Part shown: positions 5,632 through 25,801 of the stretch, piece by piece
Position numbering within the stretch: position 1 is the stretch's first letter
Layout: each line of letters starts with the position of its first letter
Assembly: GCA_023132135.1 (NCBI GenBank)
Contig: JAGLYR010000021.1
Location: 1-29,052 of the forward strand
Direction of reading: 5' to 3'
DNA: 29,052 bases
DNA from: Candidatus Eiseniibacteriota bacterium
GTDB taxonomy: Bacteria > Arandabacterota > Arandabacteria > JAGLYR01
The notes under the pieces: generated by a model
What the model was told of the DNA's origin: nothing
Seen by the model: only the letters and a program-made list of their open reading frames with translations
Database searches by the model: none
Program-made: the position numbers and the translations under genes

Positions 5632-6498
5632 CTACAGTATCTCTACGCCCTTTTTCACAGGCCTGACCATAAAGGAGCGATATCCGCGCGCGGTCAACCA
5701 CCTGTTCAGCATAGCCGCCGTATTCTGCAAGTCGAAAATCGCCAGCAGGCTGGGCCCGCTGCCCGAAAGCACAACTCCCAGAGCATGGTGTTCCCTGATC
5801 TCCGCCTTCAGAGACCCCAAGTCAGGATAGACTTCAAAGACCACCGATTCGAACCGGTTAAACAACTCACGAGCCACGGCCGGTACATCGCCGCGGCTGA
5901 GTCCCAACTGAATCATGGTAGTCAAGTCCTTTCCCCTTGTCAACGGCATTTTCAGGTGTTCGTAGGCCCAGGCGGTGGAGATGCTGGTGTCCGGGCAGAC
6001 CAGCACTATCCAGCAATCCGCAACTGGCTTCTGTGGCTCAAGATCCGTCCCCCTCCCCTTCGCCAGTTGGGTGCCTCCGTCCAGAAAAAACGGGACATCG
6101 GACCCGATATCCGCCGCCAGCCGGTGAAGATCCGCATTCCCCCCGTACATCCGGGCCAGTCCCAGCAGCACCCCGGCGGCATTCCCGCTTCCTCCCCCAA
6201 GCCCCGCCGCCACAGGAATGCGCTTGGTGATAGTGATTCTCACACCCGGCGGCTTCCCTGTGGCCGCGAAGAAAGCACTCCAGGCCTTTGCCGCCAGATT
6301 CTCCTTCCCGGTTGGGACTCCCGGGCTATCGCACACCACCTCGATTCCCGACTGCGCCTCCTCCAGCAGGATCTCATCGGCGAGGCTGACCGTTTGCATT
6401 ACCGACTCGATATCGTGGTATCCGTCGGGCCGCCGTCGCAGGACTTCCAGATAGAGATTCACCTTGGCGTAGGTCAGAAGCTTGATCTGCTTGGCCAT
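5632..6498 (-). CDS. ispE: 4-diphosphocytidyl-2-C-methyl-D-erythritol kinase
   Basis: IspE phosphorylates CDP-methylerythritol in the MEP pathway that makes IPP and DMAPP. The 288 residues are a normal length for this GHMP kinase. Motifs are [20 protein letters not shown] (about 9-28), the glycine-rich ATP loop [15 protein letters not shown] (95-109), [20 protein letters not shown] and the C-terminal [15 protein letters not shown]. Start ATG 6498 has AGG about eight nt upstream. It shows that the cell makes isoprenoids by the MEP route, which feeds the prenyl-chain enzymes encoded upstream. A 296-nt spacer with repeats separates it from the UbiA gene. Confidence 0.96.
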
Positions 6499-6794: not shown

Positions 6795-7682
6795 CTACAG
6801 GCCGTAGAGTACCAACCCTGCCGTGGCAAGCCACAACACGATGTCCAGGGCCAGGGGAAAGTCCGTCATCATCAGTTCGGAAGGATTCCCGCCCTCGTCC
6901 TTGTGCCACACCAGGTACAGATAGCGGAACAGACCATAGACCACAAAGGGCACGGTGTAGATGAGATTCTGCGTGTGGAACTTCGCCACAGTACCCGGCC
7001 AGATGGTGTAGATGGCATAGGCAATCGCCGTGCACCCAGCGACCATCGCGATCAAATGATTCAGCAAATCGACCGAGTACTCTTCCAGTGATTGCCGATG
7101 CCGGCCCGCGCCCGCTTCCAGCAGGGAAATCTCGTGGCGGCGCTTCCCCAGGGCAAGCAGGAGAGACAGGAACAGGGTGCACACCAGTAGCCAGGGAGAA
7201 AGGACCACATCAGGATCCGTAGATTGCAGGGCTTCAACCCCCGCGATGGCCCGGAGCACGAACCCCACGGCAATACTCAGGACATCGAGCAGGACTATCT
7301 GTTTGAGGCGCAGTGTGTAGGCGAGATTGAGCAGGAGGTAGGCAGACCCCACAATCCCGAAGGTCACCCCCAGCGCAAGAAAAGAACAGGCAATCCCGCC
7401 CGCGCCGACGACCAGCGCAAGGGCCAGGGCAGTCCGTGGAGACACGCGGCCGGCGGCCAGGGGCCGGTGTTTCTTGCGGGGATGCCGGCGGTCGGCTTCG
7501 ATGTCCACAAGGTCATTGATGATGTAGATGCTGCCCGAAAGCGCGCAGAACAGGAGAAAAGCCAGGCAGGCATCATAGAACATCCGGGCGTCGAACAGAC
7601 TCCTCGAAAACAGCAGGGCCGCAAACACGACCAGGTTCTTGACCCACTGCGACGGACGCATTGTCAGGAACAGAGATTTCAT
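6795..7682 (-). CDS. UbiA prenyltransferase, decaprenyl-phosphate phosphoribosyltransferase-like
   Basis: A 295-residue UbiA-superfamily membrane protein with about eight or nine membrane segments. The motifs resemble mycobacterial Rv3806c (decaprenyl-phosphate phosphoribosyltransferase): RPSQWVKNLVVFAAL at the N-terminus, the first Asp motif NDLVDIEADRRHPRKKHRPL (N56, D57, D60, D64), then LAYTLRLKQIVLLDVLSIAVG and LRAIAG around the second Asp motif, and LALGKRRHEI. That enzyme transfers 5-phosphoribose from PRPP to a polyprenyl phosphate. The start is ATG 7682, three nt after the udk stop. prs and ispE lie further down the same strand, so donor and isoprenoid supply are near. A digeranylgeranylglyceryl-phosphate synthase role is an alternative given the GGGP synthase homologue, but the motifs fit the phosphoribosyl branch better. 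Confidence 0.8.
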   Translation of the reverse strand: MKSLFLTMRPSQWVKNLVVFAALLFSRSLFDARMFYDACLAFLLFCALSGSIYIINDLVDIEADRRHPRKKHRPLAAGRVSPRTALALALVVGAGGIACSFLALGVTFGIVGSAYLLLNLAYTLRLKQIVLLDVLSIAVGFVLRAIAGVEALQSTDPDVVLSPWLLVCTLFLSLLLALGKRRHEISLLEAGAGRHRQSLEEYSVDLLNHLIAMVAGCTAIAYAIYTIWPGTVAKFHTQNLIYTVPFVVYGLFRYLYLVWHKDEGGNPSELMMTDFPLALDIVLWLATAGLVLYGL

Positions 7683-10242: not shown

Positions 10243-10291
10243 TCCTCATCACCCCTCTGTTCCAGCGCCGCAGCAACAGGGCCGGAGGTTG

Positions 10292-11440: not shown

Positions 11441-12603
11441 GACTCCGATTCGCTCCCCATCAGATCCCGGATCTCCCGATCCCAGGCTTCTACCCACCGG
11501 TCCCAGCTGAAGGCCTCCCGGATTCTCCTGCGGCCCATCTCCGTCAAGGCGCGTCTCCGCGGCCGGCTACCCAGAAGCGCAAGAACCCTCTCCGCCAGCG
11601 CTCCCTCATCACCCGCCGGAACTGTGTATCCCGATCGACCCGTCTCAATGATCTCTCCCACACCACCCACAGCGAAGGCCACCACCGGCACACCGGCCGA
11701 CATAGCTTCAAGAATCACGGTGGGGAGCGAATCGGACGCCACCGATGTGAACGCAAGAACCGTCAGATGGTCGAGGATCGCGTCGAGATCATCCTGGTAG
11801 CCCGGCAGCTCCACACGATCTCCGATTCCCATCTTGTCCGGCAGGCGCCGTAGGCTCTCTGCGAAAGCCCGCTCTCGCGGGTCTTCGCCTCCCACCAGGA
11901 CAAACCTGGCGGAAGGGATCTCCGCCGAAACCCTGGCCGCCATTCGCAAGAACACGTCGGGGCCCTTCGACGGAACCAGGCGGCCAATCCACCCCACCCG
12001 AGGTTCCCCGCAATTGCCGAGTTGTTCGCCGGACATGCCGCTGTTCCGGTGCCTCTCCCGTATTCCATTGTACAGGACACGCACGCGGGCATCGTCCCCG
12101 TGCAGCTTCAGGGACAGAGCCGCTGCTCTCGAGACTGCCAGGATCCGGTGGGGCATGTAACGCGCAGCGGCTCTCACAACAGCGCGCGCCAGAAACCCAA
12201 ACGTGGTTCGATCCACAACATCGTGAAGCCACCATGCCAGCGGCCGGCCGGCCATCCTGGCGGCCAACCCACCGTACAGGTGCGCTTTCGTCGAACCGGT
12301 CAGGACCAGATCCGCGCCCCGAAGACCGTCGGCCAAGGCCCTCAGCGCAGCCGGCCAGGACAGGACACCACCGACCAGGGAGGTCAACAAACGCAGCGAA
12401 TTCCCCCGCCCTGCGACAAGGCTGCCCCGCGGCATCGGGATAACTCGGACCGGAACACCCCGCTGCCGGAGAGCATCCGCAAGCGGACCCGCACGGGGAA
12501 GAAACGCTTCGAACTCATGCCGGTCCCCCAGCGCGTCCACCAGTCTGAGGAGCGCAACCTCCGCTCCCCCCATCTCGACATGATGATTCACCAGTGCGAT
12601 CAT
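11437..12603 (-). CDS. GT4 glycosyltransferase
   Basis: A 388-residue GT-B glycosyltransferase. The N-terminal half opens with MIALVNHHVEMGGAEVALLR, the glycine-rich GGAE motif common in GT4. The C-terminal half has RVGWIGRLVPSKGPDVFLRMAARV, RFVLVGGEDP and SDSLPTVILEAMSAGVPVVAFAVGGVGEII, the donor-binding region with its E-x7-E element. I chose ATG 12603, with GGAGG four nt upstream; a GTG three nt earlier is too close to that site. It overlaps the upstream GT stop by one base (TGATG) and the downstream GT start by four. Donor sugar unknown. Confidence 0.9.
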   Translation of the reverse strand: MIALVNHHVEMGGAEVALLRLVDALGDRHEFEAFLPRAGPLADALRQRGVPVRVIPMPRGSLVAGRGNSLRLLTSLVGGVLSWPAALRALADGLRGADLVLTGSTKAHLYGGLAARMAGRPLAWWLHDVVDRTTFGFLARAVVRAAARYMPHRILAVSRAAALSLKLHGDDARVRVLYNGIRERHRNSGMSGEQLGNCGEPRVGWIGRLVPSKGPDVFLRMAARVSAEIPSARFVLVGGEDPRERAFAESLRRLPDKMGIGDRVELPGYQDDLDAILDHLTVLAFTSVASDSLPTVILEAMSAGVPVVAFAVGGVGEIIETGRSGYTVPAGDEGALAERVLALLGSRPRRRALTEMGRRRIREAFSWDRWVEAWDREIRDLMGSESES

Positions 12604-13727
12604 CACCCCTCCAGAATCTCCCGGTAGATTCGGAGCGTCCGGCCAGCCAGGTGCTTCCAGCTGTAGTGCTTCTCAACGCGCCTCCGAGCCCGGTATCCCA
12701 GGTCCCGGGCCCTCTCTCTGTTTCCAAGGATATCTCGCAGGGCACTGGCCAGCGCATCGGGATCGCCCTCGGGAACAATGATCCCCCCATCTCCGACGAC
12801 GTTGGGGATCTCACCCGAGTCGGAACCTACAACCGGGATTCCCGAGGCCATTGCTTCCAGGAGCACGCGCCCGAATCGCTCGACCCATCCCCGCGATGAC
12901 ACAGACGGGAGAACGAAAACGCTCATTTCCCTGAGGGCCTCCGGGATCCGGTGATGGCGCACAGACCCTGTGAACTCAACCCGGGAACTGATCTTCAGAT
13001 CCTGGGCCAGTGCCTCCAGTCGCTCCCTCTCCGGCCCATCGCCCACAATGAGGCCGCGTGCGGGCTCACCCATGCGCGCCAAGGCCTCAAGAAGCACCGG
13101 CACTCCCTTCTCTCCCGTCAATGCGCCAACGAACCCGACCACCCGTCCACCGGCCCCCGGTTCCCCATCCGCCGGCCGGAAGATCTCTGTGTCGACACCG
13201 TGGGGCACTACGTCGATTTTCCCCTCAAACCCGCGCGTTCGCAGTACCCGGGCCGCCGACTCGGACCGGGCCATCGCAGCCGACGCACCCCGGTACGTGG
13301 CCTTCTCGATCTGCCGGAATGGAGGAGGATACCACTTGCGGATGCTCTGCGACGTGTGGAAAACGAGTCTGGCGCCGGGACACTGCCGGTTTCTCGACCA
13401 CAGCATCTGGGCCGCGGCCCAGCACCACGGTTCCCTCTCGAGATCAATGATGTCCGGTCGGACCTCCCTGAGCAGACAACTGATTCCGCGCCGGAACAGG
13501 GCGACGTGGCCGTTGCCTGAGAACCAGATGGGGAGAACAACCGAGCGGTAGGATTCATCCTTCTCGCCTACTTCGTATTCGACGCCGCGCCCCGGCGACC
13601 ACCACTCCCTCCAGCAGGGCGGCGCCAGTACCGTAAGGTCAACTCCCGGCAACCGGCCGAGCTCGTCGCACTTTTTCCGGTAGGCCCGCTGGAGAAGCGA
13701 CGTGTAGCTGACCATCAGAACCCGCAT
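12603..13727 (-). CDS. GT4 glycosyltransferase
   Basis: A 374-residue GT-B glycosyltransferase. The N-terminal half starts MRVLMVSYTSLLQRAYRKK and contains DIIDLEREPWCWAAAQMLW. The C-terminal half shows RVVGFVGALTGEKGVPVLLE, GLIVGDGPERERLEALA and RFGRVLLEAMASGIPVVGSDSGEIP with the conserved E-x7-E donor motif. The open frame extends 158 codons upstream, but those codons cover the flippase gene and are non-homologous. I therefore start at ATG 13727, five nt after the flippase stop. It is the first of three consecutive, overlapping GT4 genes. Substrate unknown. Confidence 0.9.
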   Translation of the reverse strand: MRVLMVSYTSLLQRAYRKKCDELGRLPGVDLTVLAPPCWREWWSPGRGVEYEVGEKDESYRSVVLPIWFSGNGHVALFRRGISCLLREVRPDIIDLEREPWCWAAAQMLWSRNRQCPGARLVFHTSQSIRKWYPPPFRQIEKATYRGASAAMARSESAARVLRTRGFEGKIDVVPHGVDTEIFRPADGEPGAGGRVVGFVGALTGEKGVPVLLEALARMGEPARGLIVGDGPERERLEALAQDLKISSRVEFTGSVRHHRIPEALREMSVFVLPSVSSRGWVERFGRVLLEAMASGIPVVGSDSGEIPNVVGDGGIIVPEGDPDALASALRDILGNRERARDLGYRARRRVEKHYSWKHLAGRTLRIYREILEG

Positions 13728-13732
13728 GCACC

Positions 13733-15196
13733 TCACCCTCTCGCCTTGTCGCCCTTCACGGCTTGCGTTCGCGCCCCCTGCAGCGCGCCTTTGAGCAACC
13801 GCCAGTCCTCCGAGGGAAGCCCCTTCAGTAGCACCAGCGCAAGGACGTAGACCGCTCCACCCGCCGGGACGACCCACAGGATATTCTCCCCTCTCAGGAA
13901 AAACCACATCACACCCAGTACACATCCTGCGACCAGTGGCCGACCGATCATCGCTCGCCTGATCCCGCTCCCCTCCACGCATTGCCGCACCGCGGCCCAT
14001 TCCACTGCGAATACCAAGGCTGTGGAGATCAAGGTGGCAACTCCAGCTCCGACGTGGCCCCAACGGGGAACAAAGAGCAGGTTGAGAAGAATGTTGGCCA
14101 GCGCGCCGCAACCCAGGGCTACCGTCACCTGCCGCTGCCGCTCCGCGGAATTCAGAGTCGTCACGAACAGGTAGTTCATGAAAAGGAGAAAGAGCGTCCA
14201 TCCCAGGTAGGGTAGTACTTCCTCGGAACCACCGAACTCGCTCCCCAACAACCGCGTCACTCTAGGGAAAAAGGTCGCGCCCAGAGCAAAGGGGAGTGCC
14301 AGAGTGAAGAAGAGACGGAACGAACGCCCGAAAATCCCCGAGAGGGAATCCCCCGCAAAGAATTTCCGGGCCAGAACAGGAAAGAGGGCCGCAGCCATCA
14401 GATCCGGTACAAACAGGACGGCTTCGACAAAGCGGTACGCGCCGCCATACCACCCTGTCGCCAGATCCCCCTTGATGAACCGCAGCATCACAACGTCAAT
14501 ACGGAAATAGATCACACCCAGAACAGAGCTCAGGGCAAAGGGAAGTGCGTTTACCAGAAGCATCCTTGCAGTCCTGGCGGTTACCCGGAAGCCGGTCGGA
14601 ATCAGGCGGGCGCGCAGCAGGTAGACCGCGACACCCAGCTCCAGCAAACTGGTTCCTGCGAAGCAGCCAACCACCACCGTGAGCCCTACCGCCCGGACAT
14701 AACACAGGATACAGAGCGACAGCAGAACGAGTTTCCCTGCCACGAAGCCCAGAACCTCGTATTGCGTCTGCTCGAAGGCGCGAAATGCTCCATTGATCAT
14801 GCCCGTGAAGGAGACGGCAAAGAGGCTCACAGCAGCCAGGTACATGGCAGTACGGCTCGCCGGTTCGGTCACGACCGACTCCGTGATCCCTACCAGTGCC
14901 AGGATGGCCACCCCCAGGAGTCCGACCTTGATGACCGCGGCGGAACCCAGGTACTCCCCCGCCTCTTCCTTCCTTCGCGCCATCTCGCGGGTCACCAGAG
15001 GCGTCAGGCCGGCGCCCATGATCACAGCGATGAGTCCGACAAAGGAAAATGCAAACGAGAATCTGCCGAAGCCCTCGGCTCCCAGAAGGCGCGTGATCAG
15101 CAGTATGACAGCCAGCCCAACGAGACGCGAAAGAACGCGGGAGATAATCAGGAGAGTTGCATTGGATGCGACGCTCTCGCCAACTGAAGGACGCAT
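13733..15196 (-). CDS. Wzx-type oligosaccharide flippase (MOP superfamily)
   Basis: A 487-residue polytopic membrane protein with about 12-14 helices. The start MRPSVGESVASNATLLIISR and RLVGLAVILLITRLLGAEGFGRFSFAFS are typical of the polysaccharide transport / RfbX branch of the MOP superfamily. Internal LLVNALPFALSSVLGVIYFR followed by IDVVMLRF is another family signature. It probably flips undecaprenyl-linked oligosaccharides made by the neighbouring transferases across the inner membrane. ATG 15196 shares one base with the TGA of the preceding isomerase gene (TGATG), so translation is coupled. No Wzy polymerase or O-antigen ligase is visible in the window. Confidence 0.9.
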   Translation of the reverse strand: MRPSVGESVASNATLLIISRVLSRLVGLAVILLITRLLGAEGFGRFSFAFSFVGLIAVIMGAGLTPLVTREMARRKEEAGEYLGSAAVIKVGLLGVAILALVGITESVVTEPASRTAMYLAAVSLFAVSFTGMINGAFRAFEQTQYEVLGFVAGKLVLLSLCILCYVRAVGLTVVVGCFAGTSLLELGVAVYLLRARLIPTGFRVTARTARMLLVNALPFALSSVLGVIYFRIDVVMLRFIKGDLATGWYGGAYRFVEAVLFVPDLMAAALFPVLARKFFAGDSLSGIFGRSFRLFFTLALPFALGATFFPRVTRLLGSEFGGSEEVLPYLGWTLFLLFMNYLFVTTLNSAERQRQVTVALGCGALANILLNLLFVPRWGHVGAGVATLISTALVFAVEWAAVRQCVEGSGIRRAMIGRPLVAGCVLGVMWFFLRGENILWVVPAGGAVYVLALVLLKGLPSEDWRLLKGALQGARTQAVKGDKARG

Positions 15197-15825
15197 CAGC
15201 GGTTGCCCGGCGCCTCGGGGCAAGGTCCGAAGACCGTTTGCTCCACCAGCGCGCAGAGGATGTGACCCATCGCGCAGTGTAGTTCCTGGATGTGCGCGGT
15301 CCGCCTCGAAGGGACGATAAGGGCGTGATCCACGGCGCGAGCGAGATCACCGCCTCCCTTGCCGAGCAGTGCAATGGCGGGGATGGGAATCTTCCGGGCT
15401 GCCTCCGCAGCTCGGGTCAGGTTGGGGGACTCGCCGCTTGTACTGATGAGGACCAACAGGTCCTCAGGCCTGGCCAGGACCTCGATCTGCCGCGCAAATA
15501 CGTTCTCGTAACCCAAGTCGTTGGACACCGCAGTGAGCACCGACGGATCCGTCGTCAGAGCGCGGGCACGCATCCCGGGACGGTCCCGGTCGAGACGGAC
15601 CACGAACTCCGCTGCCATGTGCTGGGCATCGGCAGCGGATCCACCGTTGCCGCAGAACAGAACCTGCCCTCCCGACTTCACCGAAACGGCCATCAGGTCG
15701 GCCACAACCAACATCGTCTCGGCCATATCCTTCCGCGTTGCCGCCGCAAGGCATTCCAAGGCCTCGAACTCGCTGTCGATGAAGTACCTCCGGTCCACGC
15801 GCCGTGCTGTATCTGATCTGCTCAT
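15196..15825 (-). CDS. gmhA: SIS-domain phosphosugar isomerase, GmhA-like
   Basis: A 209-residue SIS-fold protein resembling sedoheptulose 7-phosphate isomerase, the first enzyme of ADP/GDP-heptose synthesis. CGNGGSAADAQHMAAEF carries the expected metal/active-site residues H69 and E73. ALTTDPSVLTAVSNDLGYENVF and LISTSGESPNLTRAAEAAR form the SIS sugar-phosphate site, and QELHCAMGHILC supplies Q180 and H188 with the same spacing as E. coli GmhA Q172/H180. ATG 15825 was chosen because the longer frame runs into rmlD. No other heptose genes (gmhB, hldE, waaF) are in the window. A DiaA-type or other SIS role is possible but less likely. Confidence 0.85.
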   Translation of the reverse strand: MSRSDTARRVDRRYFIDSEFEALECLAAATRKDMAETMLVVADLMAVSVKSGGQVLFCGNGGSAADAQHMAAEFVVRLDRDRPGMRARALTTDPSVLTAVSNDLGYENVFARQIEVLARPEDLLVLISTSGESPNLTRAAEAARKIPIPAIALLGKGGGDLARAVDHALIVPSRRTAHIQELHCAMGHILCALVEQTVFGPCPEAPGNR

Positions 15826-15838
15826 CGCTGAACACCCT

Positions 15839-16681
15839 TCACAGAAGCGAATTGGCCACGTAGTCGGCCACGGCCTCGCGCCAGCTCCGAAGAGGAACCC
15901 GACCACTCAGTTCCCAACAGCGGTTTCGCAACACCGAGTACTTAGGCCTGGGGGCGGGGCGCCCCGCGGTCGCGGTATCGATGCGGGCAACCTCCACTTC
16001 GACCCCGGCCGCTTTCAGGGCTTCGACGGCCAGGTCGTACCACGATCCCTCGCCCGAATTCGTCAGGTGATACGTCCCAAAGGGCAGCGACTCTACCAGC
16101 TCCGCCAGCCCGGAAGCGAGATCTACAGTATAGGTGGGTGAGCCCACCTGATCGTCCACAACATCAAGACGCGGGCGCTCCCGCCCAACCTCTACCATCG
16201 TACGCACGAAGTTCCTTCCGCCGGGGCCGAAGCTCCAGGCCGCGCGCACGATCCAGTGCTCCGGCTGGTGACGCCGCACCCACTCCTCCCCCGCCAGTTT
16301 TGACCGTCCGTAGACACTGACCGGTCGCGGGGAATCGAACTCGTCGTACGCCTCTCCCTTGGAACCGCCGAACACATAGTCGGTGCTCACATACACGATG
16401 GGACAATCCATCTTCCGACAGGCTACCGCCACATTGCGCGAACCCAGTGCGTTCACCGCAAAGGCCTCGTCCTCCCGAGTCTCGCAGTCATCCACGTCCG
16501 TGAAAGCCGCGGCGTGGATCACCAGATCCGGACGCAGGTCGCGGACCTGGGACCGGACGGTGGACCACACCCGGACATCCAAATCGTCGATGTCACGGAC
16601 CACCACATCATGGCTCCGACCGAACCGATCGACGAGGGCATGCCCCAGCATCCCCCTCCCGCCTGTGATCAGAATTCTCAA
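15839..16681 (-). CDS. rfbD: dTDP-4-dehydrorhamnose reductase-like (RmlD) SDR enzyme
   Basis: A 280-residue extended SDR resembling RmlD, which reduces dTDP-4-keto-L-rhamnose to dTDP-L-rhamnose with NAD(P)H. The Rossmann motif ITGGRGMLGHALVDRF (about 5-20), HAAAFTDVDDCETREDEAF, VYVSTDYVFGG and the catalytic YxxxK (Y124, K128 in VYGRSKLAGEEW) are present, with the substrate region RAAWSFGPGGRNFV. The start is probably TTG 16681, with AGGGA seven nt upstream. A GTG 21 nt earlier overlaps the rmlA-like gene and has no ribosome binding site. rmlB and rmlC are absent from the window, so the product may be made with enzymes encoded elsewhere. Confidence 0.88.
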   Translation of the reverse strand: MRILITGGRGMLGHALVDRFGRSHDVVVRDIDDLDVRVWSTVRSQVRDLRPDLVIHAAAFTDVDDCETREDEAFAVNALGSRNVAVACRKMDCPIVYVSTDYVFGGSKGEAYDEFDSPRPVSVYGRSKLAGEEWVRRHQPEHWIVRAAWSFGPGGRNFVRTMVEVGRERPRLDVVDDQVGSPTYTVDLASGLAELVESLPFGTYHLTNSGEGSWYDLAVEALKAAGVEVEVARIDTATAGRPAPRPKYSVLRNRCWELSGRVPLRSWREAVADYVANSLL

Positions 16682-16695
16682 CGTCTTTTCCCTCT

Positions 16696-17760
16696 CTAGC
16701 ACACTTCGATCCGGCTGTAGTCCCCGATCATGAACCGCATGGACTTGGGGGGCCCTGATGCGGTCCGGATCTCCGAGTTCTTTCCCACCAGGCTGCTCTC
16801 GATCCTGGAACCGATATCCACAATGGAGCTGTTCTCAAGAATGATAGAGTGCTGGATCTCACTGTTTCGGATCTCGGCGCCATTGTGAATGGATGTGAAG
16901 GGTCCAATGAAGGCTTCCTCAATCCGGCAGTCCCCTCCGATGATCAGCGGACCGCGCAGAACGCTGTTCCACACCCGGGTCCCCTTTCCTATGGATACGG
17001 GCCCTTCAACACGGGTGTCCTCGCCAATCTCGGCTTCGATCTTGCCCTTGAGCCCGCTCAGGATCACCCGGTTCGCCTCGAGGATGTCTTCCAGCTTGCC
17101 CGTATCTTTCCACCAACCGTTGATGATTTTCGATCGTACTTCATCACCCTGATCCACCAGGTACTGTATGGCATCCGTGATTTCCAGTTCGTTTCTCGCG
17201 GAGGGCTTGATGTGATCGATCGCATCATGAATGTCGTTGTTGAACATGTATACGCCAACCAGGGCAAGATCGCTCTTGGGTTCCATGGGCTTCTCAACCA
17301 GTCGAGTCACGCGGCCATCTTCCAGCTCGGCCACGCCGAATTCCTGCGGGGTCTGAACCTTGGCCAGCAGGATGTGACAGTGCCCGGTGTCAGAGCGGAA
17401 TTCATCGACATAGGTTCGGATCCCGTCCCGGATGAGGTTGTCGCCCAGGTACATGACAAAGGGATCCTCCTCCAGATACGGCCTGGACACCTTGATGGCA
17501 TGGGCGAGTCCCAGCGGTTCCTTCTGATGGACATACGTGACCTTCACACCGAACGCGCTTCCATCCCCTACGGCCGCCTGGATTTCCTCGCGCGTGTCCC
17601 CCACTACGATCCCCACATCCGTAATTCCGGCTTTTGCCATCGCTTCCAGACCATAAAACAGAATGGGTTTGTTCGCCACGGGCAGCAGTTGCTTGGCGCG
17701 GGTATGGGTAATCGGCCGGAGTCGAGTCCCCTTGCCGCCGCTCAGAATCAGACCCTTCAT
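16696..17760 (-). CDS. Glucose-1-phosphate thymidylyltransferase, long form (RmlA-like)
   Basis: A 354-residue sugar-nucleotide pyrophosphorylase that activates a sugar 1-phosphate, classically glucose 1-phosphate plus dTTP. The N-terminal nucleotidyltransferase domain (about 1-235) has the GGKGTRLRPITHTRAKQLLP signature, NKPILFYGLEAM, GDNLIRDGIRTYV, LVEKPMEPKSDLALVGVYMF and the NGWWKDTGKLEDILEAN motif. The C-terminal half (about 245-345) is a left-handed beta-helix of hexapeptide repeats (EDTRVEGPVSIGKGTRVWNS). This marks the long RmlA/StrD-type form, distinct from the short RmlA of typical rhamnose operons. ATG 17760 overlaps the GGGPS stop (ATGA). Confidence 0.88.
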   Translation of the reverse strand: MKGLILSGGKGTRLRPITHTRAKQLLPVANKPILFYGLEAMAKAGITDVGIVVGDTREEIQAAVGDGSAFGVKVTYVHQKEPLGLAHAIKVSRPYLEEDPFVMYLGDNLIRDGIRTYVDEFRSDTGHCHILLAKVQTPQEFGVAELEDGRVTRLVEKPMEPKSDLALVGVYMFNNDIHDAIDHIKPSARNELEITDAIQYLVDQGDEVRSKIINGWWKDTGKLEDILEANRVILSGLKGKIEAEIGEDTRVEGPVSIGKGTRVWNSVLRGPLIIGGDCRIEEAFIGPFTSIHNGAEIRNSEIQHSIILENSSIVDIGSRIESSLVGKNSEIRTASGPPKSMRFMIGDYSRIEVC

Positions 17761-18590
17761 CTTCGTAGTCTCCCGGCTGTCGCCTCCACACTCGCAGTTT
17801 CGGTCCTCGAAGCACCCGCGCCGTGAATCGCCCGGGCAAAGGCTTCGATCAGTTCCCCCCGGCCGTCATCTTCCAGGATATTGCCCGTCACAACGAAACT
17901 CGCCCCCGCTTCCACCGCAGCGCCCGCCTCTTCGGGCGATCGGATCCCCCCTCCCACAACCAGCGGGATTTCGATGTACTGGGACACGGCCCGAACCATC
18001 TCCACGGGAACAGCGCTTCGCCCTCCGCTGCCGCCATCCATGAACACGTAGCGCATCCCGAAATACTGGGCAGCCAGCGCGTGGGCCATGGCAATGTCGG
18101 GTTTGTCCCTCGGGATCGGCAGCGTGGAGCTCATGAACTCCACGGAAGTCCGCTCTCCCGAGTCGATCAGCAGATACCCGACAGGGATCGCCTCAAGCTC
18201 GTAGGCCTTGATGAGGGGAGCGGCTTTCGCCTGCTCGCCCACGAGAAACTGGGGGTTCCGTCCGCTCAGGAGGCAGAGGAAGAACACAGCATCCGCCCCC
18301 GGCACCACGTGGAACGCGTTGCCGGGAAAGACAATCACCGGAAGGCTCACACTCTCCCGGACTGCAGCCACACACTCGGCAAACGACGGCTTGAGCGTAA
18401 TGGACGAACCCACCAGAATCGCGTCGACGCCGTGGTCCTGAGACCGTTTGGCGAGCGTCACCAAGTCGCCGGTCGCGGCGCGGTCCGGATCCAGGAGAAC
18501 CAGGTATCCGGCTCCCTTCTCTGCCAGGACCCTGTCCAGGTATCGACACACCGAGTCTGCGGGCTTTCCCTGTCCGACCGGGTTTTTCAA
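17757..18590 (-). CDS. Geranylgeranylglyceryl/heptaprenylglyceryl phosphate synthase family
   Basis: A 277-residue TIM-barrel prenyltransferase of the GGGPS/PcrB family, which joins a polyprenyl diphosphate to glycerol 1-phosphate by an ether bond. This is the first committed step of archaeal-type lipids. Visible motifs are AEKGAGYLVLLDPDRA (strand 1), VGSSITLKPSF, LPVIVFPGNAFHVVPGADAV, FMDGGSGGRSAVPVEMV, IPLVVGGGIRSPEEAGAAVEAG and FVVTGNILEDD. The phosphate-binding GGSGG and GGGIRS loops are intact. The usual Glu of the YLEAGSG motif is Asp here. The likely start is TTG 18590, behind a G-rich site seven nt upstream; a GTG at 18605 overlaps alaS and has no site. It follows alaS by four nt and overlaps the rmlA-like gene. 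Chain length and function in this bacterium are not shown by the sequence. Confidence 0.9.
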   Translation of the reverse strand: MKNPVGQGKPADSVCRYLDRVLAEKGAGYLVLLDPDRAATGDLVTLAKRSQDHGVDAILVGSSITLKPSFAECVAAVRESVSLPVIVFPGNAFHVVPGADAVFFLCLLSGRNPQFLVGEQAKAAPLIKAYELEAIPVGYLLIDSGERTSVEFMSSTLPIPRDKPDIAMAHALAAQYFGMRYVFMDGGSGGRSAVPVEMVRAVSQYIEIPLVVGGGIRSPEEAGAAVEAGASFVVTGNILEDDGRGELIEAFARAIHGAGASRTETASVEATAGRLRR

Positions 18591-18594
18591 CTCT

Positions 18595-21225
18595 CTACCC
18601 CCCACTCAGAGTGTCCAACAGGCGGGCCCGGGTCTTGGCCAGCGCTTCATCCAGCGCTTCGGGGGTCTGACCACCCCCCTGTGCGAAGGTCGGTTTCCCA
18701 CCCCCGTTGCCCCCAAGTTCTCGGGCCAGCGCCTTGGCAATGGCACCGGCGTGAACCTTTCCGGCGCCAGCCAAGTCATCACTTACCCCTACCACAATCA
18801 CGACCTTCCGGTCCAGCGCGGATGCAAGAACAAAGGCTCCACTCCCGACAGACTCCTTGGCCCGGTCCAGCACCTTCCCCAGCTCTGCTCCATCCATCCC
18901 GTCGGCCCGCGCCACCAGCAGCGCATGGCCCCCATGTGTCTCTATCCCTCTCAGGAGACTCTCAAGACGCCCTCCGGTTCCATGGATCTGGATCTCCTCC
19001 AGATTCTTTTCCAACACCGCGCGCGAATCGAGGAGCTGTCTCGCTTTTTCCGGGACTTCTTCCCAGCTGCCGCGTAGGAGCTCGGCCGTCTCGGCGAGCA
19101 CATCCAACTGGCGACGCCCCAGTTCGTAGGCCAAGCTACCGGAGACCGCCTCGATCCGGCGGACCCCCGCCCCGATGGAGGATTCTCTCACAATCCTGAA
19201 CGCGCCAATCTCACCAACGGCCCGGACATGCGTTCCCCCGCAGAGCTCCAGGCTCGCCTCTCCAATCCTCACCACACGGGCCTCAGCGCCATACTTGTCT
19301 CCGAAGAAAGCCAGTGCTCCCATCTGCCGGGCTTCGGCCACGTCCTTGACCCGGATCTCCACCGCTGTGTTGTCGACAATCATCTCGTTGACCCTGCGCT
19401 CCACCTGCGTCAGGCTCACAGAATCCACGGCCGACGGATGGCTGAAATCAAACCGGAATCCCTCGGGACCCACGAGAGAGCCGGACTGTTTCACGTGCTT
19501 TCCGAGGACTTCGCGCAAAGCGGCCTGAAGCAGATGTGTGCTGGTGTGGTGGCGCTCCGTCGCGCGGCGATGTGCCACATCGATCCTGGCCTGGATTTTC
19601 ATCCCCGCCATCAGAGTGCCTGATTGTACCCGGCACCGGTGGACGGTGTGTTCCGCGTCCGGTTTCCGCGCGTCGGTAACCTCCGCCTGCATCCCATCGG
19701 CCTCAATCCAACCCCGGTCCCCCACCTGCCCTCCAGACTCCCCATAGAAGGGAGTCCGGGAGAGAACCACGTCCACCTCATCACCGGGACCCGCCGAATC
19801 CAGTATCGCGCCGTCCATTGCGACGAGCGTGATTTCGGCCTCGCACGAATCCGCCTGGTAGCCGACAAACCGGCTCGCGGGTCCCCAGTCCAACTCAACA
19901 GTCTGGCGAGCTCTGCCCAGCCGTGACGTTCCCTTGGCCTTGACCTTCTGTTCGTCCATCTGTTCCTGGAACCCCACCCGATCCACCGTCAATCCCCGCT
20001 CGGCCGCCATCTCTTCGGTCAAATCCAACGGGAATCCGTAGGTGTCGTAAAGCCGGAACGCATCTCCACCCGAGATAACCTTCCTTCCCGAATCCGCCAG
20101 TTGGGACACGATTTCCTCGAAGACTCCGGCGCCGTGTTCCAGGGTTCTCAGGAATCTGCTTTCCTCGCCGTCCACCACAGCGGCGATGTGTTCCCGCTGT
20201 TCGGCCAGTTCCGGGTATGCTTCGTGCATGACGTCAATGACGGCTCCCACAACCGACTTCAGGAAAGCGTCATCGATCTCCAGCCACTGGCCCGTGCGCA
20301 CAGCCCGCCTCAGAATCCGCCGCAGCACATATCCCCGCCCCTCATTGGACGGCAGAATGCCGTCGGCGATGGCAAAGGCCAGCGCGCGCGAATGGTCGGC
20401 AATCATGGCCACGCGGCGATGGCTGGGAGACGGGTTGTCCACGAGATCCCGAACGGTCCGGACAATGCCTGCAAAGAGATCGGTCTCGAAGATGTTGGGA
20501 ACGCCCTGCAGGATAGCCGCGAGACGTTCGAGTCCCATCCCCGTGTCGACACCCGGGCGTCCCAGCGGTCTCAGTGTCCCATCCGGCTCCTGAAAGAACT
20601 GCGGAAAGACCAGGTTCCAGAACTCCACGAAACGATCGCAGTCGCAGCCCGGGGCGCACTCAGCCCGGCCGCAGCCCACACCCTCCCCGGCGTCGTAGTA
20701 AATCTCCGAACATGGACCGCACACACCCGACACCCCTGCGGGCCCCCAGAAGTTGTCCTTCCGCGATAGCCGCACGATGCGCCCGGCAGGTATCCCGATG
20801 GACCGCTGCCAGATTTCGTGGGCTTCGTCGTCTTCCTCGTAGACGGAAACCCACAACGCATTTGTCTGAAGACCCAGAACCTGCGTCACGAACTCCCAGC
20901 CCCACTCGATAGCTTCCTGTTTGAAGTAATCGCCGAACGAGAAGTTGCCCAGCATTTCGAAAAACGTGCAGTGCCGCGCGGTCCGCCCGACATTCTCGAT
21001 GTCACTGTCTTTGCCGCCGGCCCGCAGACACTTCTGCACCGTTACCGCCCGCGGGTATGGCGCCCGGTCGGGATTCTGGTAGTGATTCCGGAACTGCAGC
21101 ATCCCGGCCGTTGTGAAGAGCAGCCCCGTCTCTTCTTCCGGGACCAGAGAAGCCGATGGGACATGCACATGCCGACGGTCCGTGAAGAACTCAATGAACT
21201 TCCGGCGAATTTCCTGACTAGTCAT
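18595..21225 (-). CDS. alaS: Alanyl-tRNA synthetase
   Basis: Charges tRNA-Ala and edits Ser/Gly mischarging. The 876 residues include the class II catalytic core at the N-terminus (MTSQEIRRKFIEFFTDR, FTTAGMLQFRNHY, CTFFEMLGNFSFGDYF, VCGPCSEIYYD) and a Cys-rich insert CGRAECAPGCDCDRF, as in many bacterial AlaRS. The editing domain has its zinc ligands in HHTSTH (about 559-564) and CGGTH (662-666), and a C-terminal oligomerization/DHHA1 domain is rich in Gly (GGNGGGKPTFAQGGG). All domains look complete. ATG 21225 overlaps the recX stop (ATGA). recA-recX-alaS is a common bacterial order. Confidence 0.97.
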   Translation of the reverse strand: MTSQEIRRKFIEFFTDRRHVHVPSASLVPEEETGLLFTTAGMLQFRNHYQNPDRAPYPRAVTVQKCLRAGGKDSDIENVGRTARHCTFFEMLGNFSFGDYFKQEAIEWGWEFVTQVLGLQTNALWVSVYEEDDEAHEIWQRSIGIPAGRIVRLSRKDNFWGPAGVSGVCGPCSEIYYDAGEGVGCGRAECAPGCDCDRFVEFWNLVFPQFFQEPDGTLRPLGRPGVDTGMGLERLAAILQGVPNIFETDLFAGIVRTVRDLVDNPSPSHRRVAMIADHSRALAFAIADGILPSNEGRGYVLRRILRRAVRTGQWLEIDDAFLKSVVGAVIDVMHEAYPELAEQREHIAAVVDGEESRFLRTLEHGAGVFEEIVSQLADSGRKVISGGDAFRLYDTYGFPLDLTEEMAAERGLTVDRVGFQEQMDEQKVKAKGTSRLGRARQTVELDWGPASRFVGYQADSCEAEITLVAMDGAILDSAGPGDEVDVVLSRTPFYGESGGQVGDRGWIEADGMQAEVTDARKPDAEHTVHRCRVQSGTLMAGMKIQARIDVAHRRATERHHTSTHLLQAALREVLGKHVKQSGSLVGPEGFRFDFSHPSAVDSVSLTQVERRVNEMIVDNTAVEIRVKDVAEARQMGALAFFGDKYGAEARVVRIGEASLELCGGTHVRAVGEIGAFRIVRESSIGAGVRRIEAVSGSLAYELGRRQLDVLAETAELLRGSWEEVPEKARQLLDSRAVLEKNLEEIQIHGTGGRLESLLRGIETHGGHALLVARADGMDGAELGKVLDRAKESVGSGAFVLASALDRKVVIVVGVSDDLAGAGKVHAGAIAKALARELGGNGGGKPTFAQGGGQTPEALDEALAKTRARLLDTLSGG

Positions 21226-21689
21226 ACGTCCATCTCTTCCAGGAATTCGGTGATCACACTCCGGGAGAACCCCCGCTGCAGAAGAAAACGGTAGAGCTTT
21301 CCCCTCCGCTTTGCGGCGGGGAGATTTCCGATTCTCCGCAGACAACCCGCCGCTGCCTTTTCGCAAAGATCGTCCTCCGAGACCGTCGCGTAGATGTCAT
21401 CCAGCTCCTGGGCCAGGACTTCCTCGTCGATTCCCCTGGCCGCCAGCTTCCTTTCGAGAGCCAGTCGACCCGACGGGCGAAGCGCCAGACGGCGGTCGGC
21501 CCAATTCCGAATCAGAGCGCGGTCATCCAGGAGACCCACTCTACGAAAGTCGCAGACAACCTGGGTGATGGTATCGGTGTCGAACCCCTTCCCACCAAGA
21601 TACATTTCTATCTCCCGCTCGGATCTCATCCGGCGGCCCAAGTGTTTCGCGGCAAGATCCTTCGCCCGCTGGAGCGTGGTTCGATCCAT
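21222..21689 (-). CDS. recX: RecA regulator RecX
   Basis: RecX modulates RecA filament extension. The 155 residues show the three-helix repeats of the family: LGRRMRSEREIEMYLGGKGF, then CDFRRVGLLDDRALIRNWAD, then KLAARGIDEEVLAQELDD, and a last repeat RRGKLYRFLLQRGFSRSVI. Length and the R-S-x-x-E-(I/L) start of the repeats are typical. ATG 21689 lies 26 nt after the recA stop with a weak upstream site. Cotranscription with recA is usual and fits the spacing; the stop overlaps alaS by four bases. Confidence 0.93.
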   Translation of the reverse strand: MDRTTLQRAKDLAAKHLGRRMRSEREIEMYLGGKGFDTDTITQVVCDFRRVGLLDDRALIRNWADRRLALRPSGRLALERKLAARGIDEEVLAQELDDIYATVSEDDLCEKAAAGCLRRIGNLPAAKRRGKLYRFLLQRGFSRSVITEFLEEMDV

Positions 21690-21715: not shown

Positions 21716-22777
21716 CTAAGGGGTCACCGTTTCGGGTTTCTGCTCCGGAGGCGCCGCCTCGACCAATCCCAGCGCCACACGCACCTCTTCTTCCAGCCGA
21801 TCTGCGATGTCGGGATTATCCTTCAGGAACCGGCGGGCGTTCTCGAACCCCTGGCCCAGTCGTTCCCCACTGTACGAGATCCAGGTTCCGCTCTTCTCGA
21901 CGATGTTGTGCTCGATCCCGGCATCCAGCAGTCCGCCCTCCCGGCATATGCCGTCACCGTAGATAATGTCGAACTCCGCCTGTCGGAACGGCGGAGCAAC
22001 CTTGTTCTTCACCACCTTCACCCGCGTCCGGTTTCCCTTCGCCTCCCCACCCTCCTTGATCGCTCCGATCCGGCGGATGTCCAGCCGGACCGAGGCGTAG
22101 AACTTGAGGGCCCGTCCGCCCGAGGTCGTCTCCGGATTGCCGAACATCACACCGATCTTCATCCGGATCTGGTTGATGAAAATCACGCAGGTGCCTGAAC
22201 GACTGATGTTACCCGCCAGTTTCCTGAGAGCCTGAGACATCAACCGCGCCTGCAGACCCATTTGCTGGTCACCCATTTCACCCTCGATCTCCGCCCTGGG
22301 CACCAGTGCCGCCACCGAGTCGATGGCAATGATACCCACAGCTCCCGACCGGACCAGCATGTCCGTGATCTCAAGGGCCTGCTCCCCCGTATCGGGCTGG
22401 GAGACCAGAAGGTTGTCGACGTCCACGCCCAGCCGACTCGCATAGGCCGGGTCCAGCGCGTGCTCGGCATCGATGAACGCCGCGGTGAGTCCCTGCTTCT
22501 GGCCCTCCGCCAGGATGTGGAGGGTAAGGGTGGTTTTCCCGGAGGACTCCGGGCCGAAGATCTCCATGACCCGCCCGCGCGGCACCCCTCCAATGCCCAG
22601 CGCTGCATCCAGGGCAATGGATCCCGTGGGAATCACGTCCATCTTCTTCCCGACTGCATCTTCTCCCAGACGCATGATGGAACCCTTGCCGAAGTGCTTC
22701 TCGATCTGAGCGATTGTCAGCTCCAGCGAGTCCCCAATCGTTTTCCTGGTCCCTTTCTGCTTCGACTGCACTGCCAT
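21716..22777 (-). CDS. recA: Recombinase RecA
   Basis: RecA forms filaments on single-stranded DNA, catalyses strand exchange and triggers SOS cleavage. The 353-residue length is normal. The Walker A motif GPESSGKTT is at 75-83, with [20 protein letters not shown] (Walker B and loop 1 region), [21 protein letters not shown] (loop 2 flank) and the C-terminal [18 protein letters not shown] chose ATG 22777; an in-frame TTG nine codons earlier lies within thpR. The visible upstream bases are the thpR end, so recA is probably transcribed with thpR and cinA. I saw no clear LexA-type box in the few nucleotides before it. Confidence 0.98.
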
Positions 22778-22781
22778 GTTC

Positions 22782-23366
22782 CTACTCGCTCCCTTCACCC
22801 CCAACGAGGGCCACTTCCCTGAGAACCGTGTAGATCGGTCCCTGCCTGGTCAACTGCGATTTCATCACTTCGATACGGGTCACACGGATGCCATCGATCT
22901 CCAGATGCTGGGCCGCCGCACGTTCTCCCAGCATGCGCACGGCCGGAGAGAAATCCTTCACGCGCCCGAGAGTGGCGTGTGCCTTGAACGGCCTCTCTTC
23001 CCGGGCGAAGCCCACCTCCTCAAGACAATCCTCGATGGACGCTGCCAGCCGCGCCACCTCCTCCCTGCCCCTCTCCAGCCCTACCCATATCACCCGCGGA
23101 CGGCGGAGATTCGGAAACGCGCCGATCCCTTCAAGAGAAACCTCGAAGGCCCGGACACCCGCGCATCCCTTCTCCACAGCGCCGTACACAGACTCCAGCC
23201 GGTCCACCGGCATGTCCCCCAGGAACCTGAGACTCAAATGGAAGTTCTCCGGTTCCACCCACCTCACCCGTATGCCCGGCACGTGAATCCTGTTCTGGAC
23301 CTCCGCGACGGTCTTCTGAACCCATGACGGCAACCGGAGAGCCACAAAGGTTCGGATCGCTTCCAT
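22782..23366 (-). CDS. thpR: RNA 2',3'-cyclic phosphodiesterase ThpR (2H family)
   Basis: A 194-residue 2H phosphoesterase (formerly called 2'-5' RNA ligase LigT) that opens 2',3'-cyclic phosphates. The two catalytic HxTx/HxSx motifs are HLSL (43-46) and HATL (130-133). The opening [10 protein letters not shown], the context around [15 protein letters not shown] and the later [13 protein letters not shown] match the family closely. It lies between cinA (12 nt upstream) and recA (four nt downstream), a frequent arrangement. Confidence 0.95.
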
Positions 23367-23378
23367 TCTCAGGCTGCC

Positions 23379-24653
23379 TCAGGGTTCAAGCCCGTCCAGT
23401 GTACCACCAAGCAGGTACAACCTCAACACATTGAGCGCGGCCCGGGCCGACCGTCGTTTCACGAGTTCCCGCCCTCCCGGGAACCGGAAGCGGAACCCAC
23501 ACGCCCGCCGCCCCACCGACAACCCCACATAAACGAGACCGACAGGCTTCGCCTTCGTCCCCCCACCCGGCCCGGCGATCCCCGTCGCCGACAGCCCGAT
23601 CCGGGTCCCGGCCAGCCGGCGAACGCCCCAGGCCATTTCGACCGCAACTTCCTCGGAAACGGCCCCGTGAGCCCGGAGGGTTCCGGGATTGACGCCGAGA
23701 ACCGAGGTCTTGGTCCGGTTACTGTACGCGACGACCGCCCTGTCGAAGTACCCGGAGCTCCCGGGCACGTTGGTGAGAAGGTGGGAAATGAGCCCCCCCG
23801 TGCAGGACTCGGCCACGGCCACCGATAGCCCCTTCGTCCTGAGCAGACTCCCAACGACGCTCTCCAGAGTCTGACCATCCGTCCCGTAGACAACGGGTCC
23901 CAGGATCCGCCGGATCCGCCGCGCCACCCCGCGCAGGGTGCGGTTCACCTGATCCGGAGAACCCGAAGCTCCAATTCGCAGATCCACACTGCCGGCGTGA
24001 GGCAGGTAGGCCAGCGACCACTGTTCATCCGCTTGCAGGCTTCCAGGCAGGCGTTCCGAAAGAACCTGGGCGATCCCCGATTCGGGCCACCCAATTGTGT
24101 GCAGGGTCCGGTACTTTCGAATTCGATCGGGGAACCGGGACTCAAGATACGGGAGAATGGCGTCCTCCAGCATCCCCCGCATCTCGGCCGGCGGCCCGGG
24201 GATAACAAAAACGTCCACCCCTGCGCACGTCATCCTGAAACCCGGGGCAGTTCCCACGCGGTTCTCGATGGCCGCGGCACCCTGCGGAATGTAGGCCTGG
24301 CGGGTGTTGCTCTCCGGCATCTCAGGGCCGCGCGCCCGCCACCGTTCTCGCATCCTTCCCAGGAGGTCGCTCCTGAGCTCGAGCTTCCGCCCCGCGCCGG
24401 CGGCTACCCCCTCCCGGGTCCGGTCGTCCGCGGTGGGTCCCAACCCGCCCGTCACAATCACGACGTCGGCTCGCTCCACCGATCGCCGGACCGCCGATGA
24501 GATTTCCTCCTCATTGTCGGAAACGACGGTGACCCAACAGGGTCCAACGCCAACCTCAAGTAGTTTCTGACCCAACACAGCCGCGTTGGTGTTGACTGTG
24601 AACCCAGTCAGAAGCTCGTCCCCAACAGTGATGATCTCAGCTCTCACATCCAT
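23379..24653 (-). CDS. cinA: CinA: ADP-ribose pyrophosphatase-like / nicotinamide-nucleotide amidase
   Basis: A two-domain 424-residue protein. The N-terminal MoCF-like (COG1058) domain has AEIITVGDELLTGFTVNTNA and VTGGLGPTADDRTREGVA, typical of an ADP-ribose/CoA-type pyrophosphatase. The C-terminal PncC amidase domain has SVAVAESCTGGLISHLLTNV, YSNRTKTSVLGV and SATGIAGPGGGTKAKPVGLV and deamidates nicotinamide mononucleotide for NAD recycling. The start is ATG 24653, overlapping the end of pgpA by 10 bp; a GTG at 24647 is a less likely alternative. cinA next to recA is a classic association. Confidence 0.95.
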   Translation of the reverse strand: MDVRAEIITVGDELLTGFTVNTNAAVLGQKLLEVGVGPCWVTVVSDNEEEISSAVRRSVERADVVIVTGGLGPTADDRTREGVAAGAGRKLELRSDLLGRMRERWRARGPEMPESNTRQAYIPQGAAAIENRVGTAPGFRMTCAGVDVFVIPGPPAEMRGMLEDAILPYLESRFPDRIRKYRTLHTIGWPESGIAQVLSERLPGSLQADEQWSLAYLPHAGSVDLRIGASGSPDQVNRTLRGVARRIRRILGPVVYGTDGQTLESVVGSLLRTKGLSVAVAESCTGGLISHLLTNVPGSSGYFDRAVVAYSNRTKTSVLGVNPGTLRAHGAVSEEVAVEMAWGVRRLAGTRIGLSATGIAGPGGGTKAKPVGLVYVGLSVGRRACGFRFRFPGGRELVKRRSARAALNVLRLYLLGGTLDGLEP

Positions 24654-25111
24654 CCCAGCCCGCGCCAGAGAACCTGAAGAACGAGATTGCCGTAGATACC
24701 CGCAATCACGTCGTCGACCATGACACCCCACCCCCCCCGGAGAGACTGGGAACGCCCGGCCGGAAACGGCTTCACAATATCAAAGAAGCGGCAGAGAAAA
24801 AAGCCGACAATCAGGAGATTCCAGGTCTTCGGCACCCAGAGCATTACCACCCACATGCCGACGACTTCGTCAATGACAATGCGGCCCGCATCGTGGCCGT
24901 AGACCTTCTCCGTTTCCTGAGCGGCCCACACTCCTACGAAGAACCCGGCGACGATGGCCACCATAAGGGGAAGCGCTCCATCCAGTCCCCGGGATGAATC
25001 CGGGAACAACCAGTACAGGCCCGCCGCAAGGAGCGCCCCCGCGGTGCCCGGCGCAAAAGGGCTGTAGCCCGTGCCAAGACCTGTGGCCAGAACCAGTGCG
25101 AGCTTCCTCAA
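24644..25111 (-). CDS. pgpA: Phosphatidylglycerophosphatase A
   Basis: This membrane enzyme dephosphorylates phosphatidylglycerol phosphate, the step after PgsA. The 155 residues include GTGYSPFAPGTAGALLAAG, HDAGRIVIDEVVGMWVVML with the conserved Asp/Glu motif, FFLCRFFDIVKPFPAGRSQS and GVMVDDVIAGIYGNL. Several membrane helices are present. The start is TTG 25111, with AAGGAG eight nt upstream. pgsA lies directly upstream, separated by a 96-nt spacer that holds a palindromic repeat, so two steps of one pathway are adjacent. Confidence 0.95.
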   Translation of the reverse strand: MRKLALVLATGLGTGYSPFAPGTAGALLAAGLYWLFPDSSRGLDGALPLMVAIVAGFFVGVWAAQETEKVYGHDAGRIVIDEVVGMWVVMLWVPKTWNLLIVGFFLCRFFDIVKPFPAGRSQSLRGGWGVMVDDVIAGIYGNLVLQVLWRGLGWM

Positions 25112-25207: not shown

Positions 25208-25801
25208 CTACCGCAACGCACTTCCCAGCACAGCCCGGTTTCGGACAAGGTAGTCCAAACCCGAGACGAGGGTCAACACCACGGTCGACCACAGCAGAAG
25301 GAAAAGCACGATATCCGATACCGCGTAGTCCTGGACAATCCCCGCGTGGCTCACCCACCCAATCCGCCCCAGGAACGTCAGCTGGCCCAGGATCCATCCC
25401 ACCAAGACCATCTGGAACACGGTTTTCAGCTGCGCCATCCGGCTTGCCGCGATTACGAGCCCTCTGTAGGCCGCCAGGGAGCGGAATCCCGTGACCACGA
25501 GTTCCCGGCCAATGATCACAACCACCATCCACCCCGGGAGCCCCGGGGCGCCGCGGGCGAGCAAACCAACAAGAGCCAGTGAGATCAGAAGCTTGTCGGC
25601 GAAGGGATCCATGAGCTTCCCGAAGGATGTCTGGACGCCGGTCTTGCGGGCGAGGTATCCATCGAAGATATCTGTGAGAGCCGCTGTCAGGAACAGGAAG
25701 AACGCGATGTAGAGGAATGGGAGACCGTCCGCCAGCAGGAAAACCATGAATACCGGGCTCAGGACAATCCGGGAGAGAGTAAGCTTGTTGGGAAGATTCA
25801 T
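25208..25801 (-). CDS. pgsA: CDP-diacylglycerol-glycerol-3-phosphate 3-phosphatidyltransferase
   Basis: Makes phosphatidylglycerol phosphate from CDP-diacylglycerol and glycerol 3-phosphate in the inner membrane. The 197 residues carry the full CDP-alcohol phosphotransferase motif, D44-x2-D47-G48-x2-A51-R52-x8-G61-x3-D65-x3-D69 (DIFDGYLARKTGVQTSFG continuing to MDPFADK). The start MNLPNKLTLSRI is typical of PgsA. It follows recR by 13 nt and precedes pgpA. Its presence shows that the cell makes ordinary G3P-based phospholipids beside the G1P-type enzyme encoded nearby. Confidence 0.96.
   Translation of the reverse strand: MNLPNKLTLSRIVLSPVFMVFLLADGLPFLYIAFFLFLTAALTDIFDGYLARKTGVQTSFGKLMDPFADKLLISLALVGLLARGAPGLPGWMVVVIIGRELVVTGFRSLAAYRGLVIAASRMAQLKTVFQMVLVGWILGQLTFLGRIGWVSHAGIVQDYAVSDIVLFLLLWSTVVLTLVSGLDYLVRNRAVLGSALR

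Follow-up and report, generated by a model that had tools for sequence, protein, structure and literature searches.

The enzymes with which Archaea build their membrane lipids have been described in bacteria as well. In the FCB group, Coleman et al. (2019; PMC6431249) recorded geranylgeranylglyceryl phosphate synthase (GGGPS) and DGGGP synthase (DGGGPS) in all 12 of the phyla surveyed and glycerol-1-phosphate (G1P) dehydrogenase (G1PDH) in only two, while Villanueva et al. (2020; PMC7852524) reported that the Cloacimonetes enzymes are active, accept both G1P and glycerol-3-phosphate (G3P), and yield an archaeol phospholipid (PG-archaeol) in E. coli, with egsA, araM, and CarS missing from the Cloacimonetes MAGs. 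The occurrence of GGGPS and DGGGPS without G1PDH in FCB bacteria is already published, and the present case extends that pattern to another lineage. Within the open-access literature that we searched, no paper linked the Eisenbacteria to this pathway; nor did we meet there, in a search not aimed at them, the conserved gene row, the reductase pairing, or the Phe/Asp motif considered below.

The gene under study lies in a stretch of 29,052 nucleotides (the window) from a Candidatus Eiseniibacteriota genome. With the group II bacterial systems—F. johnsoniae (4JEJ) and the Cloacimonetes—its product shares the fold, the HMM family, the Mg-site Asp, and the phosphate loops, and the genome resembles the Cloacimonetes MAGs in having DGGGPS without CarS or G1PDH; unlike those systems, however, the genome carries its DGGGPS beside uppP on another contig and not beside GGGPS, and has no geranylgeranyl reductase (GGR), while the YLEAGSG motif of 4JEJ reads FMDGGSG in the window. 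The archaeal group IIa enzyme of M. thermautotrophicus (4MM1) is the best PDB sequence match (ca. 37% identity, TM 0.95), but the window has Phe and Asp in place of the catalytic Tyr and Glu, and comes from a bacterium that lacks G1PDH. PcrB, the group I heptaprenylglyceryl phosphate synthase of Bacillus, belongs to the same Pfam family and has the same barrel, yet the identity is ca. 20%, the score against the Bacillus heptaprenyl model NF003197 is only 32.4 bits (cut-off 260), and the window's genome has no AraM. MoeO5, a GGGPS-family member that acts in glycolipid synthesis in the moenomycin pathway, is of the same superfamily, but reaches only 32 bits by phmmer, and has 3-phosphoglycerate as acceptor and FPP as donor.

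The GGGPS gene and its active site

On the minus strand, the gene occupies positions 17757..18605 and encodes an intact product of 277–282 aa, the length depending on the start chosen: either the TTG at 18590 or an in-frame GTG at 18605 that overlaps alaS, the stop being at 17757. The first-pass annotation had the gene begin four nucleotides past alaS, and the gap between the alaS stop (TAG, 18597-18595) and that TTG is indeed of exactly 4 nt. The ATGA coupling to the downstream neighbor, likewise claimed there, is exact—the TGA at 17759-17757 overlaps the ATG at 17760-17758—but "nucleotidyltransferase" was too imprecise a name for that neighbor, a long-form rmlA (16696..17760, minus strand; TIGR01208, 489 bits, cut-off 320) for a glucose-1-phosphate thymidylyltransferase.

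The product was matched by the Pfam PcrB profile PF01884 (E = 5.7e-41; 140.9 bits, cut-off 23.9), by NCBIfam NF003198 (273.8 bits, cut-off 247), and by the GGGP equivalog TIGR01769 (190.6 bits, cut-off 161.55), and scored 42 bits against the A. fulgidus NCBIfam model; with phmmer, the M. thermautotrophicus GGGPS gave 175 bits versus 36 bits for that of A. fulgidus, and the closest solved structures were the GGGPSs of M. thermautotrophicus and F. johnsoniae. The AlphaFold model (mean pLDDT 88), a modified TIM barrel, superposed on 4jej and 4mm1 with TM values of 0.93–0.95, the fit to PcrB and MoeO5 being poorer, and its top Foldseek matches were all GGGPSs. On these HMMs, PDB matches, and structural comparisons, by which we defined group membership, sequence and predicted fold identify the gene as GGGPS, the enzyme by which Archaea start the building of their membrane lipids, and support its assignment to the FCB-type group II and not to the PcrB of Bacillus, whose model remains far under its cut-off. 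The intact GGGPS/PcrB barrel with phosphate-binding loops that had been read from the sequence, and the placement inside that family, have stood, with profiles, AlphaFold/Foldseek, and catalytic motifs in agreement. A further PcrB match in the same genome, at contig C342, was weak (19.8 bits, under the cut-off), and the "1 TGA inside" flags raised for relatives, considered as possible recoding, were terminal stops.

In the M. thermautotrophicus enzyme, Mg is bound by D25 and S54 (reviewed in PMC9385802); the counterparts by alignment, Asp39 and Ser68, are invariant across 23 aligned sequences, and the window protein retains the GGG and GSG phosphate loops. The same review describes Y134, Y178, and E180 as strictly conserved residues that matter for stereospecificity and catalysis; in the window the first is kept as Tyr144, the second is replaced by Phe, and the third by Asp. 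The first-pass annotation had rightly noticed the Asp, but overlooked the Tyr-to-Phe replacement two residues earlier, and its suggestion that the Asp might alter activity finds no support, because Asp is ordinary among the bacterial relatives (21 of 30). At the position of Tyr178, Phe was present in all 16 sequences of the window, its class sisters, the Eisenbacteria, and the Effluviviaceae, and in none of the 15 other bacterial sequences compared; in addition, relatives carry Phe/Glu and Tyr/Asp versions of the motif. With Asp common and Phe clade-wide, the stated strictness of these three positions fails in bacteria.

A conserved gene row and its inheritance

The window consists of a single minus-strand row of mostly housekeeping genes, as identified by Pfam and NCBIfam. 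The first half of the row comprises, in order, dnaX, ybaB, recR, pgsA, pgpA, cinA, thpR, recA (21716..22804; TIGR02012), recX, alaS (18595..21366; PF01411, 634 bits; also the upstream neighbor in syntenic relatives), GGGPS, rmlA, rmlD (15839..16702; TIGR01214, 301 bits) for a dTDP-4-dehydrorhamnose reductase, and gmhA, for a gmhA-like SIS-domain isomerase (15196..15906; PF13580; NF010546, 179.7 bits, under the cut-off of 276). A polysaccharide block follows, and then udk, a UbiA-family decaprenyl-phosphate phosphoribosyltransferase-like gene (DPPRS; 6795..7682; NF008977, 266 bits, over the cut-off), a GHMP-kinase gene (5632..6498; PF00288/PF08544) that, from family knowledge plus synteny, we take to be ispE of the non-mevalonate isoprenoid route, spoVG, tRNA-Gln, prs, rplY, pth, and ssb.

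The order in the Eisenbacteria is identical (pgsA-pgpA-cinA-thpR-recA-recX-alaS-GGGPS-rmlA-rmlD-gmhA-udk-DPPRS-ispE-spoVG-prs-rplY-pth), and in the Effluviviaceae the same order was followed to the limit of the contig; the Edwardsbacteria retain alaS-GGGPS-rmlA-rmlD-gmhA, with an rmlA of another type, and the Latescibacterota recA-recX-alaS-GGGPS. To describe the gene as embedded in a glycan operon, as had been done, is accordingly misleading: the comparison indicates that GGGPS is a long-standing resident of a deeply conserved housekeeping row rather than an insertion into a glycan operon. The polysaccharide block itself (8337-15223, between gmhA and udk) contains a flippase-like ORF (13733-15223, called by inspection only), three GT4 genes, a WcaJ-type initiating transferase, and an EamA protein, and is peculiar to the window, gmhA and udk being adjacent in the Eisenbacteria. 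A polysaccharide flippase occupies the corresponding position in one class sister (G001), and the gmhA-udk gap looks like an insertion hot spot.

The GGGPS tree was compatible with that of the concatenated alaS, recA, pgpA, and cinA, in which the Edwardsbacteria and Latescibacterota lie outside, followed by the window's lineage, the class sisters, and the Eisenbacteria; the window sits alone on a long branch that neither tree places exactly. These compatible trees, together with the common gene order, argue for an old GGGPS copy, vertically inherited within the clade. A recent transfer from Archaea was rejected on the conserved gene order, the absence of contradiction between the two trees, and the closest matches, which are bacterial and come from neighboring lineages.

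The candidate diether pathway and its glycerol phosphate

Five UbiA genes were found in the genome (window 6795-7682, C222, C225, C277, and C46). The one at C46:7198-8052 has the DGGGP synthase models NF009523 (209 bits) and NF009521 (191 bits) as its best matches, and keeps intact both the ND..D...D and the KD..D...D motifs, whose residues matter in the M. jannaschii DGGGPS (PMC9385802). Since the 209 bits lie under the curated cut-off of 269—as do the scores in all 32 compared genomes and in every named control genome, archaea included—the assignment as DGGGPS rests on motifs, synteny, and best match. Of the remaining UbiA genes, that of C277 showed no clear affiliation, while that of the window is of the decaprenyl-phosphate phosphoribosyltransferase type and not a DGGGPS, that of C222 a MenA, and that of C225 a UbiA-TPR fusion. 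The latter (L006:658-3183) is an 841-aa protein joining a UbiA prenyltransferase domain to a C-terminal TPR array, and UbiA matches in open frames of ca. 850–980 aa were seen in several Eisenbacteria genomes and in the Effluviviaceae genome.

A further 16 genomes with GGGPS encode a copy of the C46 DGGGPS at 33–41% identity; eight of them are Eisenbacteria, four are class sisters, and the Edwardsbacteria and Poribacteria account for two each. The gene was weak or missing in G002, G004, the Effluviviaceae genome, and the Latescibacterota, and the Bacteroidetes matches (47–122 bits) were ambiguous. In the window's genome and four class sisters, DGGGPS is flanked by a TPR gene and uppP; one of the Edwardsbacteria genomes has it before uppP, and one of the Poribacteria before a GGR. 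On C46 (L058:7198-9167) the DGGGPS start overlaps the stop of the 372-aa TPR gene, with uppP next, an order which suggests that diether lipid synthesis may be linked to undecaprenyl phosphate recycling.

The same-phylum comparison covered eight genomes, all of one class, seven of which possess GGGPS. In the six GGGPS-bearing class sisters, without exception, a GGR lies directly upstream of GGGPS: as a 391–408-aa flavoprotein between alaS and GGGPS, and few bases from the latter, in G001, G002, G003, G005, and G006; and in G004 as a GGR tail adjoining GGGPS at the contig end, the pairing there being read across two contigs. Four tested copies of these flavoproteins passed TIGR02032, the geranylgeranyl reductase family, and two tested copies contained the Pfam GGR catalytic domain. 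The Eisenbacteria loci have no GGR between alaS and GGGPS, the reductase being elsewhere in the genome; in the window's own 96%-complete assembly we found none, either at that junction or elsewhere, the best match (C118, 34.7 bits) resembling by eye a Thi4-type flavoprotein. The sole class member without GGGPS, G007 (83% complete), had no DGGGPS above 53 bits and no GGR, which is consistent with a loss of the whole route.

From this gene set we consider it probable that GGGPS and DGGGPS together make an unsaturated archaeol-type diether phospholipid, as a minor component beside normal ester lipids. The GGGPS, a soluble TIM-barrel prenyltransferase, would transfer the chain of geranylgeranyl diphosphate—the chain length being predicted from the family—to the C-3 hydroxyl of its glycerol phosphate substrate, either G1P or G3P, thus forming geranylgeranylglyceryl phosphate, to which the membrane-bound UbiA-family enzyme of C46 would attach a second geranylgeranyl chain. 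In the downstream steps, the head group would be added by bacterial CDP-lipid enzymes: a putative CdsA, followed by the window's PgsA and PgpA. The product would presumably stay unsaturated, because no reductase was found in the genome. Three polyprenyl synthases are present, as is PlsY, outside the window, whose presence leads us to expect ester lipids too; moreover, the ordinary G3P-based route that had been recognized in the window is there, with a pgsA-like CDP-alcohol phosphatidyltransferase gene (25208..25801, minus strand; PF01066) and pgpA for phosphatidylglycerophosphatase A (24644..25111, minus strand; PF04608), in agreement with the earlier suggestion that both chemistries may coexist.

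The reading as diether lipid synthesis draws on the GGR beside GGGPS in the class sisters, the co-occurrence of DGGGPS, and the housekeeping synteny, to which we add the GGR beside DGGGPS in a Poribacteria genome and the formation of PG-archaeol by the Cloacimonetes orthologs in E. coli (PMC7852524). Against the same reading we count the score of the C46 DGGGPS, the Phe and Asp at two of three positions termed strictly conserved, and the absence of G1PDH, CarS, and GGR from the assembly. Of the companion genes that the first-pass annotation had suggested seeking in the rest of the genome, the DGGGPS was found, whereas CarS, for which bacterial CdsA can substitute (PMC7852524), gave no match in the 96%-complete assembly; nor did G1PDH (egsA/araM; NF002022), the genome's only Fe-ADH_2 match, at C342, being an aroK-aroB fusion. 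In that ORF (L003:844-2553) shikimate kinase and 3-dehydroquinate synthase are fused, and an aroQ-like ORF follows. The lack of any G1P source had been named beforehand as a finding that would speak against the first-pass reading, and by that rule it would weigh in that direction; but the same absence in the Cloacimonetes did not stop activity (PMC7852524).

Without a G1PDH, either some other source of G1P exists, or GGGPS uses G3P. Among 32 genomes, the only convincing relatives picked up by NF002022 were those of two Poribacteria, with a weaker one in a single Latescibacterota genome. One of those Poribacteria (G008) has a G1PDH-like ORF (L074:1366-2352; 113 bits), a Tyr/Glu-type GGGPS, and an adjacent DGGGPS-GGR pair, and is possibly, from its genes, a bacterium with the complete archaeal-type set. 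We propose only tentatively, and regard as rather unlikely, a sub-case of the diether explanation—the confidence accorded to the two overlaps—in which the Phe-for-Tyr clade of FCB bacteria (the window's lineage, the class sisters, and the Eisenbacteria/Effluviviaceae), without G1PDH and mostly with DGGGPS, makes archaeol-type diethers on a G3P backbone, the Phe/Asp enzyme taking G3P and the products having bacterial stereochemistry. None of the 16 Phe-clade genomes has a G1PDH match, those of at least 70 bits being confined to 3 of the 15 genomes with Tyr, and the Cloacimonetes GGGPS accepted G3P too in vitro (PMC7852524); but the Phe probably arose in a single evolutionary event, so that its association with the missing G1PDH is not independent evidence for G3P use, the Edwardsbacteria and Bacteroidetes have Tyr and are likewise without G1PDH, and, as cited in PMC7852524, E. 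coli makes G1P-lipids in the absence of araM.

Other roles and biological meaning

The earlier idea of a glycosylated prenylglycerol anchor is disfavored by the housekeeping synteny in several phyla, the GGR between alaS and GGGPS in the sisters, and the co-occurrence of DGGGPS. In its general form—a monoprenyl glyceryl phosphate that is dephosphorylated and then capped or glycosylated, in the manner of Bacillus PcrB or MoeO5, so as to serve the adjacent rml and GT genes—we judge this role to be improbable. The ATGA coupling of GGGPS to rmlA, the presence of rmlA-rmlD(-gmhA) after GGGPS in several phyla, the occurrence, in the gene row itself, of a polyprenyl-phosphate phosphoribosyltransferase-like gene and of ispE, and the precedent of MoeO5, itself a PDB match, would all fit such a role; but recA, alaS, prs, and pth share that row, so that the neighborhood alone says little, and in the Poribacteria and most of the Bacteroidetes loci examined GGGPS has no rml neighbors, which renders the glycan neighborhood inconsistent across phyla. 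Moreover, the direct upstream partner in the class sisters is a GGR and not a sugar gene, DGGGPS is present in the window's genome and in 16 others with GGGPS, and the PcrB and MoeO5 scores are low, the 32 bits of MoeO5 comparing with 175 bits for GGGPS. That GGGPS and DGGGPS instead degrade ether lipids, or are relics that ceased making them, would accord with the missing GGR, CarS, and G1PDH and with the reverse reaction suggested by Coleman et al. (PMC6431249), but is very improbable in view of the intact genes, the catalytic motifs conserved over long distances, the fixed gene order, and the orthologs active in synthesis (PMC7852524).

The synthesis of a diether lipid is thus the physiological role that we favor, and the conserved alaS-(GGR)-GGGPS order connects GGGPS with the reductase in bacteria. 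Which glycerol phosphate the FCB bacteria choose for their archaeal-type lipids is of direct relevance to the lipid divide and to models of mixed membranes; and if the G3P variant were true, a natural organism would combine archaeal chains and bonds with the chirality of bacteria. This genome group offers clean material for such a test, having long kept GGGPS and DGGGPS with no G1PDH, and presenting a natural Tyr-to-Phe and Glu-to-Asp active site beside relatives of the Phe/Glu and Tyr/Asp types.
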